Shown here piece by piece: positions 10,609 through 59,057 of a DNA stretch of 64,000 nucleotides. Position 1 is the first letter of the stretch. Each line of letters starts with the position of its first letter. The DNA lies in NCBI GenBank assembly GCA_026129465.1, contig JAHCIA010000001.1:3073503-3137502 (forward strand), read 5' to 3'. The notes beneath the pieces are model-generated. The model had not been told where the DNA came from. It saw nothing but the letters and a program-made list of their open reading frames with translations, and searched no databases. Made by a program: the position numbers and the translations under genes. Source of the DNA: Flavobacteriales bacterium. Lineage in GTDB: Bacteria; Bacteroidota; Bacteroidia; Flavobacteriales_F; PHOS-HE28.

Positions 10609-12159
10609 ATGGACAGCTACTACTTCACCGAAGAACATGAACTCTTCCGCGAAAGCCTCCGCTCCTTTCTCCAGAAGGAAGTGGTGCCGCACATCGAGAT
10701 CTGGGAGGAACAGGGCCGCATCCCGCGCGACATCTGGAAGAAGATGGGCGACATGGGCTTCCTCGGTCTGGGTTACCCCAAGGAATACGGGGGCATGGAG
10801 CTCGACTTCTTCTACGACGTAGTCTTCTGCGAAGAGACCTCGCGCGTCTTCTCAGGCGGCTTCACCATCACCCAATTGGTGGTGCAGTACATGAGCAGCC
10901 CGTACATCCTGAAGTATGGCAGCGATGCGCTGAAGAAGAAGTACCTGCCGGGCATCATCAGCGGGAAGCTGGTGGGCTGCATCGGCATCAGTGAACCAGG
11001 CGCGGGCAGCGACGTGGCCAACATTCAGACCACCGCCGTGCGCCAGGGCGACCACTACGTGGTGAACGGCAGCAAGACCTTCATCACCAACGGCGTGTAC
11101 GGCGACTTCATCGTGGCCGTGGTGAAGACCGACCCCAAGGCCGGTGCCGGTGGGGTAAGCCTGCTGGTGATCGACAAGGACCTGCCGGGCATCACCACCA
11201 CCAAGCTGAAGAAGCTGGGCTGGCATGCCAGCGACACCGCCGAGCTGGGCTTCGACAACGTGAAGGTGCCCGCCGAGAATCTCATCGGTGAAGAGGGACA
11301 GGGCTTCTACTACCTGATGGGCGGCCTGCAGCTGGAGCGACTGGCCGGCGCCATCAGCGCCTATGCCGCCTGCGAAAGCGCACTGACCTACACCCTGGAG
11401 TACATGGCCGCCCGCGAAGCATTCGGTCGCCCGATCAACAAGTTCCAGGTATTACGTCACCGTGTGGCGCAGATGGCCTCGGAGATCGAGAGCACCAAGC
11501 AGTTCGTGCGCCACTGCAGCCACATGCACGCCGACGGCCACTACGCCGTGAAGGAGTGCTCCATGGCCAAGCTGCTTGCCACCGAACTCAGCGACAAGGT
11601 GATGACCACCTGCCTGCAACACTTCGGCGGCTATGGCTTCATGGAGGAGTACAAGATCGCCCGCATGTTCCGCGACAGCCGCGTGGGCACCATCGGCGGC
11701 GGCACCAGCGAGATCATGCGGGACATCATCGCCAAGATGGTGATCGATGAGGTGAGCTATGCCAGTGCATCGGAGAAAGCCCCGAAGGCGGCTGCGCCGA
11801 AAGCTGTGCCTGCTGCGGAACCAACACCAGCTCCAGCTAATGCAAGCAGCAATGGCAATGGTGTCGACTTCAACCGCCTGCTGGAAGGTGTCCGCGAGCG
11901 TTCGGCCACGAAGAAGCCACTCGGCAAGACCCTCAAGTTCGACTTCGGCGAGCACAAGCTCTTCCTGGACGGCACCGGCGACAGCAACATCGCCACTGCC
12001 GACGACAAGGATGCCGACTGCACCGTGAAGGTGAGCCTGGAGGACTTCCTCGCCCTCACAAAAGGCAAGCTGAACCCCATGACCGCCATGATGACCGGCA
12101 AGCTGAAGATCAGCGGCGACATGGGCGTGGCCATGAAACTGCAAACGGTGTTCGGATGA
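10609..12159 (+). CDS. Acyl-CoA dehydrogenase fused to a C-terminal SCP2 sterol-carrier domain
   Basis: 516 aa from ATG 10609 (MDSYYFTEEHELF); the longer frame would run back into the SDR gene. ACAD core ~1-380: SEPGAGSDVANIQT and TFITNGVYGDF bind flavin/substrate. The YEGT position reads GGGT, while Glu243 in GLQLERL supplies the base, the long-chain/isovaleryl-type arrangement. An Ala/Pro-rich linker (APKAAAPKAVPAAEPTPAPA) leads to ~100 residues of SCP2 fold (KFDFGEHKLFLDGTG ... DADCTVKVSLEDF ... GKLNPMTAMMTGKLKISGD). SCP2 binds lipid acyl chains, so the fusion may channel bulky substrates. A free paralogue of the SCP2 domain follows. Confidence 0.93.
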   Translation: MDSYYFTEEHELFRESLRSFLQKEVVPHIEIWEEQGRIPRDIWKKMGDMGFLGLGYPKEYGGMELDFFYDVVFCEETSRVFSGGFTITQLVVQYMSSPYILKYGSDALKKKYLPGIISGKLVGCIGISEPGAGSDVANIQTTAVRQGDHYVVNGSKTFITNGVYGDFIVAVVKTDPKAGAGGVSLLVIDKDLPGITTTKLKKLGWHASDTAELGFDNVKVPAENLIGEEGQGFYYLMGGLQLERLAGAISAYAACESALTYTLEYMAAREAFGRPINKFQVLRHRVAQMASEIESTKQFVRHCSHMHADGHYAVKECSMAKLLATELSDKVMTTCLQHFGGYGFMEEYKIARMFRDSRVGTIGGGTSEIMRDIIAKMVIDEVSYASASEKAPKAAAPKAVPAAEPTPAPANASSNGNGVDFNRLLEGVRERSATKKPLGKTLKFDFGEHKLFLDGTGDSNIATADDKDADCTVKVSLEDFLALTKGKLNPMTAMMTGKLKISGDMGVAMKLQTVFG

Positions 12160-12221
12160 AATGCAAGCCGCAGATGGCGCAGATGACGCGGATGGAATGT
12201 GTCAATGCCAAGTTCCATCCG
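12158..12221 (-). repeat. Reverse copy of the CATCYGYG element plus hairpin
   Basis: 12158-12195, read on the minus strand, is a CATCCGCGT/CATCTGCGC/CATCTGCGG element followed by GCATTTC, matching the copy at 4678-4711. CGGATGGAA (12189-12197) and TTCCATCCG (12213-12221) form a perfect 9-bp stem with a 15-nt loop. It overlaps the stop codon of the ACAD-SCP2 gene and precedes the free SCP2 gene. Confidence 0.78.
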
Positions 12222-12301
12222 TGCACCTGTACTGTCGACCCATCGGGCCGACGAACGGGTGCAATAATCGTATGAAACACTAAACGAAAACCCCAACAAC
12301 C

Positions 12302-12601
12302 ATGACCCTGAACGACATCCTCCCCCTCGTGAACCAGAAGGCCGCCAACGCTGCAGCCCTGGGCAACACTATCCGCTTCGACCTCGGTGACGACAGCGTG
12401 CACGTGGACGGCACCGGCAGTGGCAATATCGTCTCCACGGAGAAGAAGGACGCCGACTGCACGGTTACCGTATCCGCCGATGTGTTCCACCAACTGCTCA
12501 CCGGCGACCTGAACCCGATGGCGGCGGTGATGAGCGGCCAGGTGAAGATCGGCGGCGACATGAGCATGGCCATGAAGCTGCCGGCCATCTTCAACAGCTG
12601 A
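12302..12601 (+). CDS. Stand-alone SCP2 sterol-binding domain protein
   Basis: 99 aa, a single SCP2 domain. It is closely related to the C-terminal domain of the preceding dehydrogenase: DADCTVTVSADVFHQL, LNPMAAVMSGQVKIGGDMSMAMKL versus DADCTVKVSLEDFLAL, LNPMTAMMTGKLKISGDMGVAMKL. No signal peptide, so cytosolic. Likely a free lipid or acyl-CoA carrier for the same pathway. No Shine-Dalgarno is seen; the leader is AC-rich. Confidence 0.88.
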   Translation: MTLNDILPLVNQKAANAAALGNTIRFDLGDDSVHVDGTGSGNIVSTEKKDADCTVTVSADVFHQLLTGDLNPMAAVMSGQVKIGGDMSMAMKLPAIFNS

Positions 12602-12617
12602 GGAGGGGAGTATCGAT

Positions 12618-12740
12618 CACCGCAGAGAAGCGGGGGCGCGGAGAACGCGGAGGTTGAACCCGGATGCTTGGCTGCCTTCGTGGTCGGGAAGCTGTTGCTC
12701 AACCTCTGCGCACCTTTGCGTCTCCGCGGCCCTGCGGTGA
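12618..12740. repeat. Imperfect 42-44 bp inverted repeat (CGCAGAG/CGCGGAG family)
   Basis: Left arm 12618-12659 begins CACCGCAGAG and ends AGGTTGAAC; right arm 12697-12740 is its imperfect reverse complement (GCTCAACCTCTGCG ... CTGCGGTGA). The arms consist of degenerate ACGCGGAG/GCGCAGAG units. It fills the 151-bp gap between SCP2 and tsaB and could act as a terminator-like hairpin at the end of the catabolic cluster. Confidence 0.75.
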
Positions 12741-12752
12741 ATTGTTCCTCCG

Positions 12753-13430
12753 ATGCCCCTCCTCCTCGCCATAGAGACCGCCACCAAGCTCTGCTCCGTG
12801 GCCTTGGGCCGTGATGGGCAGGTGTTGGCCATCCGCGAGGTGGACAGCGAGAAGCTCGCACACGCCGAGAAGGTCAACGTCTTCATCGCCGAGGTGATGG
12901 AAGAAGCGGGCCTGCCGCTGAAGGACCTCGATGCCGTGGCCGTGGGCATTGGGCCGGGCAGCTACACGGGCCTGCGGATCGGACTAAGTGCCGCCAAGGG
13001 CTTGTGCTACGCGCTGGACAAGCCCATCATCGGAATCTCTACGCTGGCCGCGCTGGTGCAAGCCGCACGCACCGCGCATGGACAGCTGCAGGGCACGTTG
13101 TGGCCCATGATCGATGCGCGGCGCATGGAGGTCTTCGCGCAGCCATACGATGCCGATGGCCAAGCCTTGGCCGATGTCGCACCGTTGATCCTGGACGAAG
13201 CCTGGGCCGCGCTGCCGGAGGCCCGCGTGGTGTTCGGCGATGGCGCCGACAAAGCCGCGCCAACTTGGGCCGGACGCGCAGGTATCACACACTTGCCCGG
13301 CATTCGCCCCACCGCATCCGCCATGCTGCCGCTGGCCGAGAAACGCTGTCGGGCCGGCAGCTTCGATGAGCTGGCCTATCTGGTGCCAGTGTATGGGAAG
13401 GGGGCCTCCGTGGGCAAGGCGATGATGTGA
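12753..13430 (+). CDS. tsaB: tRNA N6-threonylcarbamoyladenosine biosynthesis protein TsaB
   Basis: 225 aa ASKHA-fold pseudo-enzyme partner of TsaD in making t6A37 on ANN-decoding tRNAs. N-terminal LLAIETATKLCSVAL, the signature GIGPGSYTGLRIGLSAAKGLCYA and the later LAYLVPVYGKGA tail are all present, and length is typical. It is preceded by an intergenic palindrome, suggesting a unit separate from the upstream catabolic genes, and is convergent with the next gene at only 16 bp. Confidence 0.94.
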   Translation: MPLLLAIETATKLCSVALGRDGQVLAIREVDSEKLAHAEKVNVFIAEVMEEAGLPLKDLDAVAVGIGPGSYTGLRIGLSAAKGLCYALDKPIIGISTLAALVQAARTAHGQLQGTLWPMIDARRMEVFAQPYDADGQALADVAPLILDEAWAALPEARVVFGDGADKAAPTWAGRAGITHLPGIRPTASAMLPLAEKRCRAGSFDELAYLVPVYGKGASVGKAMM

Positions 13431-13446
13431 TCGGGACTCTTCCGCT

Positions 13447-13884
13447 TCAGTTCGCGAACACCACCACCTTGAAGGTCATCATCTGATCGGGCGGGCTGAA
13501 CTTCTCGCCGTAACGATCGATCATCACCTGCACTTTGCCAACGCCTTTATCGAAGCGCCAGTTCAGTCCGAGTGGCGCGCCTTGGTGGGCCAGCAGGGGC
13601 AACTCGGCCCAGTTGTTCGCGGAGCGCTTCACGTAGACCCGCACCGTGCCGCTCTGGAGGACCCCCTCGTCGATGATGTTCACCGTCTTGATCACGTCGT
13701 ATCCGTGGGTGTCATCACCCGGTATGCCGTAGGCGCTCCATTCGTCGGCCTTCACCTTGAAATGGTGTTCCTGCCCCAGGAGGCCATTGTCGCCCAAGGG
13801 TGGGCGCGGCGCGGCGTTCTCGTCCTTGTCGCAGGCGCTGAATAGGATCGCACATATCAGGATCGGAATACGGGTGGCGCGCAT
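13447..13884 (-). CDS. Hypothetical lipoprotein
   Basis: 145 aa from ATG 13884. An in-frame ATG at 14157 exists but overlaps the upstream gene and gives an arginine-rich shadow. The signal ILICAILFSAC is a good lipobox with Cys18. The mature part is ~125 residues, probably beta-rich (VIKTVNIIDEGVLQSGTVRVYVKRSANNW), ending MMTFKVVVFAN. No family recognised. It is last in a minus-strand operon after the 22-residue-repeat protein, 44 bp downstream of it. Confidence 0.72.
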   Translation of the reverse strand: MRATRIPILICAILFSACDKDENAAPRPPLGDNGLLGQEHHFKVKADEWSAYGIPGDDTHGYDVIKTVNIIDEGVLQSGTVRVYVKRSANNWAELPLLAHQGAPLGLNWRFDKGVGKVQVMIDRYGEKFSPPDQMMTFKVVVFAN

Positions 13885-13928
13885 GCGGCGGCGGTGTTGT
13901 GATGCAATGTTACGCACCACGGCGCGGC

Positions 13929-14426
13929 TCACAGACCGGCGAGGATCGCCAGCAGGGCGATCATGGGCACATCGCCGCGAACCTGCAGGATGGCGTCGCT
14001 CTTGTTGGCGAAGGGACCTTCGGCCAGGTGGACCATGTTCCCGTCCAGGATGAACGCGCCTTCGCTCTTGTTGCAGAAGGGGCCTTCGCCGCGGAACACC
14101 TTGTTGCCTTCCAGCATCAATGCGCAGCCGCCTTTGTTGCAGAAGCTTCCATGGCACCGGTACAGGTGGCCGCCATCGGCCAGGAAGGCGCCCTGGCCGC
14201 GACCGCCGAAGGGGTCGGCGCTGTGGTAGACCTCCGTGTCGTTGAACACGAAGATGCAGGGGCCTTTCTGGCCGAAGGGACCCGAGGCCGTGTGGATGCG
14301 GCCGCGCTCCACGATGAAGGCGGCGTCACCGACCTGCCCGAACGGCCCGTAGGCCCAGTGGATCACGGTGGACTGTGCCTGCAGGAGGCAGGGAAGCAGC
14401 AGGGCGATGAGCGATGCGAGGCGCAT
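13929..14426 (-). CDS. Secreted protein of six perfect 22-residue repeats, unknown function
   Basis: 165 aa. Signal peptide 1-18 (LIALLLPCLLQAQ), then six consecutive units of exactly 22 residues at 27-48, 49-70, 71-92, 93-114, 115-136 and 137-158. The consensus per unit is roughly GPFxNKSxxAFIxxGxxVHxAE. Fixed Gly-Pro-Phe starts and alternating hydrophobics suggest one coil of a short beta-solenoid per unit; paired Cys occur in units 2-5. The last seven residues (LAILAGL) are hydrophobic. No known repeat family is recognised. It sits in an operon with the YD-repeat-like secreted protein (10 bp upstream) and a lipoprotein downstream. Confidence 0.78.
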   Translation of the reverse strand: MRLASLIALLLPCLLQAQSTVIHWAYGPFGQVGDAAFIVERGRIHTASGPFGQKGPCIFVFNDTEVYHSADPFGGRGQGAFLADGGHLYRCHGSFCNKGGCALMLEGNKVFRGEGPFCNKSEGAFILDGNMVHLAEGPFANKSDAILQVRGDVPMIALLAILAGL

Positions 14427-54483: not shown

Positions 54484-55638
54484 TCACACGGTCGGGTGCG
54501 CATGGCAGCCACCCTGTTCGGCCATGCTGAGCCGAAGCTCACCCAAGTCGTGCTGCAACGCGCTGCCGCATGCGTTTTGGCAGAACGGGCAGGCGTGGGC
54601 TTCCCCGGCCGTGTCGATGTAGAGGAACCGCGAACCCGCACCTGAGCAGCCCACGGCGCGCTGATAAGCGCCATAGTGATCGACGATGGGATACTGCCGG
54701 TAGGAGGTATCGTGGTGGAGGTCGCGAACGAATTGGTCGAGCACGGCGTGCTGCACCGGCCCCAGCTCCACATCCTGGCCATGGAAGTTGCCTGCTGCGC
54801 GCGGTTCCACCAGTCGTATGAAATGGACCTTCAACTCACCGGCGAGCCGGGCATAGGCCATCAGGTCCTCCATGTTGCAGAAGCTACGGACCGGCACCAA
54901 TGACATGGCCACCACCAGTCCGGCCTCGCGGGCGTTCACCACGGCACGGCGGGCCCGCTCGAAGCTGCCTGCGAGTCCCCTGAAACGGTCGTGTTCCCTG
55001 GCGTCCCAGTGGTCCAGGCTGATGGCCACACCGGTCGCGCCGGCGTTGCGCAGGGCTTGGGCGCGTTCGGCCGATAGACCATGACCGGAACTGAGCACCC
55101 AGAAGTCGGTGAGCGATGTGTCGCAGTTGCGCAGGATGAACAGCAGGTCATCGAAGCGGCTCATGGGTTCGCCTCCGCTGAATTCGATCTGCGCGACGCC
55201 GGTCGACTGGAGCGACCGGACGATGCGGACGACCTCTGCGGCCGTGATCGCGTCAGGCTCGTTCAGCACGGCGCCCTCGGAACAATGCGCGCAGCGCAGC
55301 GGGCATTGCCGGGTGAAGGCGATGATGGCCAGGGTGAGTCCGGGCAGGTGGCCGGGTATCGGATGTACGCGATGGAGCTCATTGGTCAGGAAGGTGTCCC
55401 ACGCTTTGGATGGGCGGCCGGGGTATGTGAGCATGTGGAACACGCGACCGCCCACTTCCACACAGCGGCCCATGTGACGCACGGCGCGATTCTCCATCAC
55501 CGTGATGCGGAGCTTCCGCAGCGCCATGCGGACATCCGATCCACTGGGATAGTGGGCACGGGCAAGCCGGAACGCATCGGCCATGGCACGCCAGCGCGCC
55601 ACCTTCAACCCCCAGCCGTTGATCATGGAAGACCCCAT
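54484..55638 (-). CDS. Radical SAM protein with SPASM/twitch-like C-terminus, unknown substrate
   Basis: 384 aa. A ~100-residue N-terminal region (VGGRVFHMLTYPGRPSKAWDTFLTNELHRVHP) precedes the radical SAM core with Cys112, Cys116 and Cys119 in QCPLRCAHC and IEFSGGEPMSRFDDL. The C-terminus has GCSGAGSRFLYIDTAGEAHACPFCQNACGSAL, a Cys pattern that could ligate an auxiliary [4Fe-4S] cluster as in SPASM/twitch maturases. Such enzymes often modify peptides or proteins. It follows a membrane-protein gene by 1 bp; no small precursor ORF is visible. Substrate unknown. Confidence 0.85.
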   Translation of the reverse strand: MGSSMINGWGLKVARWRAMADAFRLARAHYPSGSDVRMALRKLRITVMENRAVRHMGRCVEVGGRVFHMLTYPGRPSKAWDTFLTNELHRVHPIPGHLPGLTLAIIAFTRQCPLRCAHCSEGAVLNEPDAITAAEVVRIVRSLQSTGVAQIEFSGGEPMSRFDDLLFILRNCDTSLTDFWVLSSGHGLSAERAQALRNAGATGVAISLDHWDAREHDRFRGLAGSFERARRAVVNAREAGLVVAMSLVPVRSFCNMEDLMAYARLAGELKVHFIRLVEPRAAGNFHGQDVELGPVQHAVLDQFVRDLHHDTSYRQYPIVDHYGAYQRAVGCSGAGSRFLYIDTAGEAHACPFCQNACGSALQHDLGELRLSMAEQGGCHAHPTV

Positions 55639-55639
55639 G

Positions 55640-57265
55640 TCACAATGCCACCTTCAAGGGATAGGCCCGCGAATCCTCGTACCGTTCCCGGGAGTAGCGC
55701 GGGAGGGCATCAGCATCCTCGAATGTGCGCAGGTACAGCAGACTCGGCCGATGGGGAAGCGGATCGCGGAGGATCTCGTAATGCCCGGCGGCATGCAGGA
55801 ACAAGCTGCGCTGGGCGCCTTCGGGTGCCGGGGTGGCTTGGAACACGATCTCGGTCATGTCGTCGAGTTCCGGTTGGATCAGGTGGATGCCATCCTCCTC
55901 CATCAGGACCGATAGCATGTCGCGCCCATCCTGATCGGTGGCTTTGACAGGAACCAAGGACGAGCAATTCAAAGCTTGCGTCGTGCCCATGTCCAGTGCC
56001 ACGCGGTCGATCTCCCAGAAGAGATATCCGGTGGACAGCCGGATGACCACTTCGTCGGCCGATGCATCGCCCAGATCGATCTCGAGCACATCATCCCGCC
56101 ATGCGATCGGACCCATGAGTTCGAACTGGCCGGCCTCCTTCCATTCGCCCGACCGCTGGAGAACATGCACGGACAAGGGCATCCGCTGCGCCTTGGCCCA
56201 GGCGTGCAATTCCTCGGCACTGCGGCCCAGGTCGCGCTGTCTTACGCGGTCCGCGTACGTGCCCAGTTCATCCAGGAAGAGTCCGAAGAGATGGTCCAGC
56301 CAGAAGGTGTTCTTGGCGGTGACCATGAGACGGGCCATCGGTGCATCCGTTGGTCTGTCGAAACGCAGCTCGATGGTCTCACGGGCATCCTGTGTGGCAT
56401 TGTCCGGGTCGCCATGCCATGCGATCCCATCCATGGTGGCAAGCGTTCCGGTCAGGTCCACGCCGTTGTGGGCGCGGGCCATCATGGGCGCAGCCGGGGC
56501 GGCGAGGGCGTGAGGGCTGCCATGGCGATCGAAAAGGACCTGGACGCCGGGGGTGTGGTCCACGGCGATGAGACGGACCAGGTCGGTATGCTGGATCTCG
56601 CGGGCCATGTTGCTCAGACGCACCCGGTAGTGGTCATCCACCGGCCGCAGGTGCCGTAAGGGAAGGCGATCATGCCGTTGGAGTTGGGGGTAGATCGCGC
56701 CGGAAAAGACCTCGCCTTCCAGGTGGAAGGCGCCATTGGCGTCCTGTGAAAAGACGAATGGGCACGAACTCTTGGTGGCGATGATGATCAGTAGCAGAAG
56801 TGCCGCGATGCCGACCAGCCCCAAAAGACTGAGCACGATCGTGGCGCCCGCGTCCACATCGATGTATTCCATGCGGACGATCTGCGACAGGGGGACCGAG
56901 CCGGCCAGGCCGCCGCTGGTATCACGGCGATATTCGCTGTTCGCATAGAGGATCACCCGGCGCGCATGCGACTTCAGGTCCCGGTGCCGGTCGGCATTGA
57001 GCAGGTCCATGGCATCCAGGTCGGACAATCGCTCGAACGTGCCCGACAGCGTGTCCTGTGTCAGCACGGGCTTGCGGATGCGCCATACCTCGGCGCTCCT
57101 GGTACCATCGGTGACCAGGAAAACGGCCCTGGGTTTGGCGACGAGCTTCGGCAGGGACCGCTCATCGAGCAGGCGCCGCTGCCACCGGGTGCAACTCCAC
57201 TGCCCGAACAGGAAAACGATGAGCAGGAAGACGGCCATCCGCCGTTGATGCAGGTGCAGGTCCAT
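55640..57265 (-). CDS. Membrane-anchored protein with SCPF motif, operon partner of the radical SAM protein
   Basis: 541 aa. N-terminal hydrophobic segment 10-24 ending at Cys25 (GQWSC, a poor lipobox, so perhaps a signal anchor). Residues ~38-135 look like a small beta domain (AVFLVTDGTRSAEVWRIRKPVLTQDTLSGTFERL; SVPLSQIVRMEYI). Then a strong membrane helix 139-162. After it comes KSSCPFVFSQDANGAFHLEGEVFSGAIYPQLQRHDRLPL. A ~340-residue beta-rich region follows, with one long helix near FWLDHLFGLFLDELG. I recall uncharacterised Bacteroidota/Acidobacteria proteins with the same SCPF...EGE motif but no assigned function. Confidence 0.72.
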   Translation of the reverse strand: MDLHLHQRRMAVFLLIVFLFGQWSCTRWQRRLLDERSLPKLVAKPRAVFLVTDGTRSAEVWRIRKPVLTQDTLSGTFERLSDLDAMDLLNADRHRDLKSHARRVILYANSEYRRDTSGGLAGSVPLSQIVRMEYIDVDAGATIVLSLLGLVGIAALLLLIIIATKSSCPFVFSQDANGAFHLEGEVFSGAIYPQLQRHDRLPLRHLRPVDDHYRVRLSNMAREIQHTDLVRLIAVDHTPGVQVLFDRHGSPHALAAPAAPMMARAHNGVDLTGTLATMDGIAWHGDPDNATQDARETIELRFDRPTDAPMARLMVTAKNTFWLDHLFGLFLDELGTYADRVRQRDLGRSAEELHAWAKAQRMPLSVHVLQRSGEWKEAGQFELMGPIAWRDDVLEIDLGDASADEVVIRLSTGYLFWEIDRVALDMGTTQALNCSSLVPVKATDQDGRDMLSVLMEEDGIHLIQPELDDMTEIVFQATPAPEGAQRSLFLHAAGHYEILRDPLPHRPSLLYLRTFEDADALPRYSRERYEDSRAYPLKVAL

Positions 57266-57277
57266 GTGTGGGAAGGT

Positions 57278-57844
57278 TTATGGTCCGGTCGATCGTCGGG
57301 GCAGGTACTCCCTCAATTTTGGGCGCAACCCTTCGTAGATGGTCGCATTCCCATTCACGTAATGGGCATGGCGCTGCGATCCGGCGCCCAATCCTATGGA
57401 GAAGCCGACGCAGGTGCCGATCAGGGCGAAGAGCAAGGTGTTCTGGTCCTTGTAGGTGACCCTGAAAAAGCCGAGGTCATGTGTCCGGTCGCGACCGGTG
57501 AGATAGCCCACACCCATCCCCAACAGCAGCCCGGAAGCGCCGCCCACAGCCGCTCCGGTGAGCTTGGCGTTGCGGCGCCTGGCCATCACAGACCCCAGCT
57601 CATCGGGCGGGACCAACAGGTCCGGCATGCGCACGGCACTGTTCCTATTGGCCGGTGCCACCAGCAAGCCTTCCGCGCGCACATCCAGCAGCCTCACCGG
57701 CGTCAACTTGCCGAATCCGGTGCCGTTGATCCAGATATCATAGCGGGGCCTCGCTTCCGTCCGATCCTGTGCATGGAGGGCTGTGCCCACGCAGAGCAAC
57801 ATCATGCAGATCGACATCAGTTCGTGTCGCGGATGGATCCACAT
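57278..57844 (-). CDS. Envelope protein with Sm-like domain and glycine-zipper membrane segments
   Basis: 188 aa from ATG 57844 (ATG 57817 also possible). Signal peptide ICMMLLCVGTALHAQ. A small beta domain follows (YDIWINGTGFGKLTPVRLLDVRAEGLLVAP ... LLVPPDELGSVMARRR), then two Gly-rich hydrophobic segments (LTGAAVGGASGLLLGMGVGYLTG; LLFALIGTCVGFSIGLGAGS). The layout, beta domain then Leu-Pro-x-x-x-Leu/Ile then membrane helix, parallels the N-terminal part of the next gene product. First gene of the three-gene operon. No assigned function. Confidence 0.7.
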   Translation of the reverse strand: MWIHPRHELMSICMMLLCVGTALHAQDRTEARPRYDIWINGTGFGKLTPVRLLDVRAEGLLVAPANRNSAVRMPDLLVPPDELGSVMARRRNAKLTGAAVGGASGLLLGMGVGYLTGRDRTHDLGFFRVTYKDQNTLLFALIGTCVGFSIGLGAGSQRHAHYVNGNATIYEGLRPKLREYLPRRSTGP

Positions 57845-57965
57845 GAAGGATCGCGATAGGTCATGTGAAGCTAACATGATGGGGCGGATAAGCAAGCCCG
57901 TGGGGGCGCGATGGGTCATGTTCCGGCACGATGTTCCCGTTGCCCGATGGCTAACTTGTGGCGGT

Positions 57966-59057
57966 ATGAAACATTGGACCATCTCAGCGGCCATGGCATT
58001 GTCCGCGTTGGCTGGCGCTGCCCAGGACGTCACCGCCTTCATCGACTATATGGACCGGCTCTATGTGTTCGATCGCGGCACCATCCGCCAGATCGAGCCG
58101 CGCAAGCCCATTGCCCTGCACGTAGGGGGCAACTACCTGGCCTATACCGACAACCGCGATGACCTGAAGGTCTATTGGAACGGCCGCACGCAGGTGATCG
58201 ACCGCGCCATGGACCTGGAACCCATCGTCACCGACCACTACATGGGTTTCACGGTGGCCGGCATCCTGAAGGTCTTCGATGGCAAGACGCGTGTGATGAC
58301 GCCCAACCTGGGCATGTACGTGGTGGAGGACAGTCTGGCGGTCTTCAAGGACGAGGTGCAGGGCAAGATCATGGTCTACTACAAGGAAGAGAAGGTCAAG
58401 CTGGAGGACCAGCTCGCGGGCAACGCCGTGGTGGACTTCGGGTCCGGTGACAACGTCTTCGCGTGGGTCTCCTCCTTCGATCGCCTGTTCAAGGTGTTCT
58501 ACCACGGCGAGATCTACGAGCTGAGCGACCTGGTCACCGGCATGGACTTCAAGTGCGGGCTGGACCTGGTGGCCTACCGCGATGCGTACGACCACACCTT
58601 CAAAGCCTTCCACCAAGGCACCATCTACGATCTGGAGGAACAGATGCCACAACGTTTCGAGGTGGGCAAGGGCATACTCGCGTGGTTGGACCTCACCGGG
58701 TCACTGAAGATCTTCGAAGGCGGCCAGGTGTTCAAGGCCATGGATTTCGAGCCGCAGCACTGGGAGGTGGTGGACAGCCTGGTGGTGGTGCAGGACCGTG
58801 GTTTCTTCAACGTGTTCAACCGGGGTCGCTTCCACGAATTGGAGCGTGCCGTGCCCTTGAAGTGGAAGGCCTCCTGGGGCACCATGGCCTATGTGGATGT
58901 GGACCGCACACTGAAGGTGTGGCGCAAGGGGATCACCGACGTGGTGGTGCGCGGGCAACCCGTGCAGGACTTCCGGGTGGACCGCGGGCTGGTTATCGCG
59001 CGGCTGAACGTGAACACCGCCCGCATCTGGTGGCGTGGCGAGACCTACGACCACTGA
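57966..59057 (+). CDS. Exported repeat protein, predicted beta-propeller, unknown function
   Basis: 363 aa from ATG 57966. Signal peptide MKHWTISAAMALSALAGAAQ. The rest is nine to ten imperfect units of ~36-38 residues sharing LKVFxxGxxxxLE followed by a VxxxxxxLAWxD-like strand: LKVYWNGRTQVID, LKVFDGKTRVMT, FKVFYHGEIYEL, FKAFHQGTIYDL, LKIFEGGQVFKA, FNVFNRGRFHEL, LKVWRKGITDVV, ARIWWRGETYDH. The last half-unit could close onto the first, as in propellers. No named family recognised. Divergent from the radical SAM operon over 121 bp. Confidence 0.75.
   Translation: MKHWTISAAMALSALAGAAQDVTAFIDYMDRLYVFDRGTIRQIEPRKPIALHVGGNYLAYTDNRDDLKVYWNGRTQVIDRAMDLEPIVTDHYMGFTVAGILKVFDGKTRVMTPNLGMYVVEDSLAVFKDEVQGKIMVYYKEEKVKLEDQLAGNAVVDFGSGDNVFAWVSSFDRLFKVFYHGEIYELSDLVTGMDFKCGLDLVAYRDAYDHTFKAFHQGTIYDLEEQMPQRFEVGKGILAWLDLTGSLKIFEGGQVFKAMDFEPQHWEVVDSLVVVQDRGFFNVFNRGRFHELERAVPLKWKASWGTMAYVDVDRTLKVWRKGITDVVVRGQPVQDFRVDRGLVIARLNVNTARIWWRGETYDH

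Follow-up and report, generated by a model that had tools for sequence, protein, structure and literature searches.

A predicted lipoprotein and a radical SAM enzyme are encoded by a conserved gene pair in Bacteroidota

The genome of a Flavobacteriales bacterium (GenBank assembly GCA_026129465.1, contig JAHCIA010000001.1) includes a stretch of 64,000 nucleotides (positions 3,073,503 to 3,137,502, referred to here as the window) in which three open reading frames (ORFs) of 188, 541 and 384 amino acids (aa) follow one another on the minus strand, with gaps of 12 bp between the first two and 1 bp between the last two. These ORFs had been read as an operon in which a radical S-adenosylmethionine (SAM) enzyme might modify two membrane proteins, and their positions and spacing were confirmed (Table 1). 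The conserved unit is smaller: the genes for the 541-aa protein, a predicted lipoprotein with a KSSCPF motif (the SCPF lipoprotein), and for the 384-aa radical SAM enzyme constitute a two-gene module in many Bacteroidota lineages. The dependence is one-sided, with the lipoprotein being the enzyme's one constant partner in our surveys, and the enzyme may be its maturase.

The lipoprotein and enzyme genes occur together

The nearest relatives were assembled from the best 80 of 140 confirmed genome loci by similarity to A1, together with the window, G007 and G059, giving 83 loci. The enzyme gene adjoins the lipoprotein gene in 76 of them, and in all 76 it lies downstream on the same strand. Rufibacter hautae and Flavobacterium orientale are examples of culturable carriers in this set. 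Seven loci have no adjacent enzyme gene (L003, L004, L005, L008, L052, L056 and L043). The L043 contig stops 258 bases past the lipoprotein gene, in the L004 genome a complete pair is present on a different contig (L134), and the genomes of L005, L008 and L052, for which completeness is unstated, gave no enzyme match at E<=1e-30. The L008 locus (11629-14384) is close to L006 and L010 without having the enzyme, and an ORF that by eye resembles an insertion sequence (IS) transposase lies about 2 kb downstream. Eight contig sizes (24273, 27699, 273668, 19917, 35785, 32072, 12193 and 30724) are common to the lists of lipoprotein and enzyme homologues, which suggests that these homologues share contigs.

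Two further surveys used genomes that were not chosen by similarity. Among 396 genomes of the class with completeness of at least 95%, searched for both genes at E<=1e-30, 13 were found to have the enzyme and exactly these have the lipoprotein as well (12 of 195 genera), so that presence and absence agree in all 396. The genes are neighbors on one contig by coordinates in 13 of 13, with six of the loci fetched and read; in G681 they are separated by 450 bp holding two ORFs of 76-80 aa. If the genes were distributed independently, identical sets of 13 would be expected with odds of 1 in 7.75e23, although the real odds are much less extreme owing to common ancestry. In the second survey, covering 392 genomes of the phylum with a strong match defined as E<1e-70, the lipoprotein was found in 10 genomes and the enzyme in nine, and all nine enzyme genes adjoin a lipoprotein gene (a 165-aa ORF sits between the two in G448). 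The remaining lipoprotein genome, G232, has no enzyme. Six weaker enzyme matches (E about 1e-35 to 1e-51; G114, G133, G249, G265, G350 and G478) are located away from a lipoprotein gene, with G133 and G350 having distant lipoprotein relatives on other contigs. The co-occurrence that the original prediction asked for is thus found, while the opposite outcome that it named, enzyme homologues placed routinely in unrelated pathways, was not seen among the close homologues surveyed, the six distant ones being located elsewhere.

The two surveys share seven pair genomes and together provide 15. The lipoprotein gene comes first in 10 of these and the enzyme gene in four (G276, G448, G648 and G663), and the two are divergent in G675. 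Within the window's genus, the lipoprotein gene was found in two of 45 genomes including the window's own, some of the 45 being incomplete. In G007 the pair adjoins an oxidoreductase gene that resembles the window's by eye. Plasmid records gave no match to P0187 at 1e-25 and none to the window lipoprotein (P0002) at 1e-5.

The SCPF lipoprotein

A protein-database search with the 541-aa protein scored the 7996 candidates with the most words in common and returned 77 relatives; neither Pfam nor NCBIfam gave a match to the protein at E up to 1. In an alignment of 93 sequences (A3), the lipobox cysteine is present in 92 when four alignment columns are allowed. The conservation of this lipobox-like residue, Cys25 in the window, makes the 541-aa protein a predicted lipoprotein. 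It had been described as an anchored protein, and its hydrophobic segment is indeed present (maximal 19-residue Kyte-Doolittle mean of 1.88-3.18 across the 93 sequences), but the anchor is now predicted to be a lipid at Cys25. The KSSCPF motif directly follows the hydrophobic segment as claimed, with its cysteine being residue 168 instead of 167. The surrounding block (residues 161-170) has a mean predicted local distance difference test score (pLDDT) of 59 in the AlphaFold2 (AF2) model. Since 39 of the 93 sequences lack any cysteine downstream of Cys168, there is no conserved downstream disulfide partner.

Residues of about 252-432 in the SCPF domain show likeness to galactose-binding or carbohydrate-binding-module (CBM)-type beta sandwiches. 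In the enzyme-linked member L142, a carboxypeptidase-regulatory-like domain replaces the hydrophobic helix. We infer that the SCPF domain, rather than the membrane segment, is the part that the enzyme goes with. The domain is probably extracytoplasmic; the charge bias around the helix in A3 is ambiguous for topology. Parts of the lipoprotein also occur separately. Proteins of 172-182 aa near the pair (L050:12929-13477, L053:7969-8487 and L021:920-1459) are homologous to its N-terminal domain and helix and have no SCPF domain, and proteins of about 1150 aa (L107 and L109-L112) share about 120 SCPF-domain residues with a GSCPW motif; L110, the member that was scanned, contains FG-GAP and UnbV_ASPIC domains.

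The radical SAM enzyme

Searching the protein database with the enzyme gave 152 relatives from 7995 candidates scored, the best 120 of which were listed. The assignment to the radical SAM superfamily was borne out by PF04055 (76.5 bits against a cut-off of 29.5) and by the invariant Cys112, Cys116 and Cys119, and the C-terminal cysteine set noticed originally is also present: all seven cluster cysteines are found in 86 of 99 alignment rows, representing 79 of 92 distinct sequences. Twitch-type C-terminal regions follow the formula Cx9-15Gx4C. The enzyme has a matching element, Cys331-x13-Gly345-x4-Cys350, followed by Cys353 and Cys378 as predicted cluster ligands, and judging from these residues it probably binds one auxiliary cluster. 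SPASM-type enzymes, by comparison, have two auxiliary clusters and about seven C-terminal cysteines, where this enzyme has four conserved ones. No NCBIfam cut-off was reached among the best 25 of 63 models at E up to 1, and the best of them, the GeoRSP radical SAM family TIGR04303, scored 85 bits against a cut-off of 400, which places the enzyme outside that family.

The AF2 model of the enzyme (pLDDT 95.7) begins with a helical hairpin whose mean net charge is +3.6 and +4.3 over 84 aligned sequences, and this hairpin is possibly membrane-peripheral. A PqqD-type (RRE) domain gave no Pfam match in the enzyme, where the model has the hairpin at the N-terminus; no domain-only fold search was made. 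No short precursor-peptide gene fits into the 12- and 1-bp gaps, and clustering of neighboring genes took ORFs of at least 60 aa only. Two homologues have unusual architectures. P0170 carries an extra N-terminal multi-helix membrane region that is weakly Ceramidase-like (18.5 bits, under the cut-off of 32.5). P0196 is predicted as a single protein in which the enzyme comes after a C-terminal portion of the lipoprotein (103 bits); its junction looks frame-shifted by eye, and we did not use it as a natural fusion.

What the enzyme may act on

The best explanation, which we hold tentatively, is that the enzyme is a dedicated maturase of the lipoprotein and acts before export, because the lipoprotein is its constant partner, the dependence runs one way only, the nearest solved fold belongs to a peptide maturase and the QhpD/QhpC system provides a precedent. 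The enzyme would use a 5'-deoxyadenosyl radical on the newly made lipoprotein and would likely alter a residue of the SCPF domain in the cytoplasm. The most economical product would be a crosslink through the sulfur of Cys168, the natural candidate residue, as QhpD makes in QhpC. Once mature, the lipoprotein would function in the envelope, in many cases alongside a small outer-membrane-barrel-like protein whose gene lies upstream. A bolder form of this proposal describes a Bacteroidota lipoprotein class in which the dedicated enzyme crosslinks the invariant Cys168 before export and the hydroxylase of Flavobacteriaceae acts on the same product, and we regard it as unlikely.

Two sets of observations qualify this explanation. 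The first comes from comparing lipoproteins with and without an adjacent enzyme gene. This comparison omitted L056, L107, L109-L112, L071, L048, L043, L004, L134-L139 and L001, which are duplicates, split or truncated sequences, or sequences unsuited to comparison because of another architecture or for other reasons, while the tree comparison omitted L001, L030, L048, L071, L135, L136, L138, L139 and short ORFs. Ser-Cys-Pro is kept in all 20 relatives compared that have no adjacent enzyme (16 distant and four near), and most of the distant ones read Phe-Gly-Ser-Cys-Pro in the raw sequences. As relatives lacking the enzyme conserve the residue too, the data give no specific indication of Cys168, and the idea of it as an enzyme-specific site, put forward originally, was not supported. 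A second cysteine stands four residues ahead of Ser-Cys-Pro in 10 of the 16 distant unlinked relatives (L003, L096, L100-L106 and L108), a pattern not shown by the linked ones, five of whose 87 members have a cysteine two residues ahead of Cys168; the motif region of L089 reads CSCPH. Residue 225 is Gln in 81 of the 87 linked proteins and His in all 16 distant unlinked ones. Since the four near unlinked proteins also carry Gln, this is a clade difference, and we did not use it as evidence.

The second set concerns the genes beside the pair in other lineages, and it favors the main rival explanation, in which the enzyme works at the membrane on a lipid or an acyl chain. According to this explanation, it would make an unusual lipid of the envelope, in some lineages together with a fatty-acid hydroxylase, KAS III or a desaturase, and the product would be bound, moved or inserted by the SCPF lipoprotein and the barrel-like protein. 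The Pfam scans of neighbors covered 55 downstream genes out of 94 in the chains and 55 upstream genes out of 99. The downstream genes include FA_hydroxylase (20/55), ACP_syn_III, which is KAS III (3/55), and FA_desaturase (2/55), and KAS III is also found in one of the 55 upstream genes. Of 86 distinct loci, 20 have the FA_hydroxylase gene after the pair; they come mainly from Flavobacteriaceae and also include L017, L053 and L142. Among distant unlinked relatives of the enzyme, that of G265 has a KAS III gene directly after it by Pfam and that of G114 a same-looking gene by eye. The G478 locus includes an aminotransferase-class I/II gene as well as genes that by eye seem related to lipids. 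The weak Ceramidase match in P0170 and the basic N-terminal hairpin, the first helix of which is the most hydrophobic of nine compared, are in line with the same explanation. We consider a lipid substrate less probable than a protein one, with a real though minor chance of being correct.

We judge it improbable that the enzyme's product is a small molecule or cofactor, bound or used by an SCPF lipoprotein that itself stays covalently unchanged. An association through co-regulation or joint transfer alone, with no biochemical relation between the two proteins, would fit the patchy distribution within the window's genus, but it is very improbable, as the linkage outlasts changes of order or strand in five of the 15 pair genomes and the agreement of presence and absence extends over the whole class survey.

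Should the lipoprotein be the substrate, an exported lipoprotein family would join the protein, as opposed to peptide, substrates of radical SAM enzymes, and a family without Pfam or NCBIfam match would gain testable chemistry. The result, whether a modified protein or a modified lipid, would provide a function for an enzyme falling under the NCBIfam cut-offs mentioned above.

Other genes at the locus

We rejected the three-gene operon as a unit, since a single further homologue of the 188-aa protein was found and phmmer gave no match to it (E<=1) in L002-L083. This homologue, P0201, was found among 692 candidates scored and sits on a contig of the same size as that of the pair P0004/P0081. 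The 188-aa and 541-aa proteins had been described as having related architecture; homology between them was not detected (profile-comparison probability of 0.2%, with one side consisting of two sequences), and none was detected between the 188-aa protein and the barrel-like proteins encoded upstream. The proposed glycine zipper of the 188-aa protein does have a Pfam match, but one under the cut-off (20.4 against 28.9 bits). A divergent ORF of up to 424 aa (window 57783-59057, plus strand), with an internal signal-like start by eye, adjoins the 188-aa gene.

Upstream of the pair, the loci often encode a secreted protein that ends in a barrel-like part, one cluster being present in 22 of the 83. 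Among the 55 upstream genes scanned, 32 encode proteins ending in Phe, six match OMP_b-brl_2 and five match OMP_b-brl. In 11 loci (L011, L016, L025, L027, L028, L034, L050, L070, L073, L080 and L081), a protein of about 333 aa that looks like a regulator by eye is encoded near the pair on the opposite strand; the one member scanned has no Pfam match.

Table 1. Genes and protein features of the locus, in window coordinates
Feature	Coordinates	Strand	Remarks
188-aa secreted/membrane protein gene (P0003)	57278..57844	-	Lineage-specific first gene, outside the conserved pair
SCPF lipoprotein gene (541 aa, P0002)	55640..57265	-	Predicted exported, lipid-anchored
Cys25, predicted lipidation site (lipobox-like)	57191..57193	-	Kept in 87/87 enzyme-linked relatives
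Hydrophobic helix, residues 139-163	56777..56851	-	AF2 helix, low confidence (block means 59-85)
KSSCPF motif, Lys165-Phe170, with Cys168	56756..56773	-	Cys168 in 93/93 (A3)
SCPF domain, residues 165-535	55661..56773	-	Block mean pLDDT at least 90 over 171-530
Radical SAM/Twitch-type enzyme gene (384 aa, P0001)	54484..55638	-	Conserved partner of the lipoprotein
N-terminal basic helical hairpin, residues 8-54	55477..55617	-	AF2 secondary structure
Cys112-x3-Cys116-x2-Cys119, canonical radical SAM cluster motif	55282..55305	-	Invariant in alignment A2
Cys331-x18-Cys350-x2-Cys353-x24-Cys378, predicted ligands of one auxiliary iron-sulfur cluster	54505..54648	-	From sequence

Comparison with known systems

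Among the papers listed in literature searches, none describes this radical SAM-lipoprotein pair in its title or abstract opening. The family TIGR04133, 'rSAM_w_lipo', is similar in that its name refers to a lipoprotein, in this case a neighboring one. The window enzyme (P0001) scores 38 bits against its cut-off of 425 and therefore lies outside it, and P0002 has no NCBIfam counterpart. The sulfatase motif of the substrates of the anaerobic sulfatase maturating enzyme (anSME) differs from the S-C-P-F of the window lipoprotein. Two fully ligated auxiliary clusters are described for anSME (PMC6231123), in contrast to the one predicted here.

The sactisynthase SkfB is the closest solved fold and the top profile match, with the enzyme model aligning over residues 76-384, and like the window enzyme it has a radical SAM core plus a Twitch domain (PMC6231123). 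SkfB is different in its N-terminal RRE and small peptide substrate, where the window enzyme has a different N-terminus, a helical hairpin, and a 541-aa partner, and in its cysteine spacing, CX33CXC (PMC6231123).

QhpD and QhpC belong to the maturation of quinohemoprotein amine dehydrogenase, and systems of this kind are marked by thioether crosslinks in the partner protein. In the QhpD/QhpC system, the radical SAM gene shares an operon with the gene of its substrate, and QhpC is modified in the cytoplasm before passing to the periplasm (PMC7876137). The SPASM domain of QhpD contains seven cysteines (PMC10352776), compared to the four conserved C-terminal cysteines of the window enzyme. QhpC has a leader peptide and an ABC exporter of its own, whereas the window lipoprotein has a predicted lipoprotein signal, and no exporter is found among the recurrent neighbors of the pair. 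The likeness is in the arrangement: here too an enzyme gene is linked to the gene of an exported partner, with export predicted from the lipobox only.

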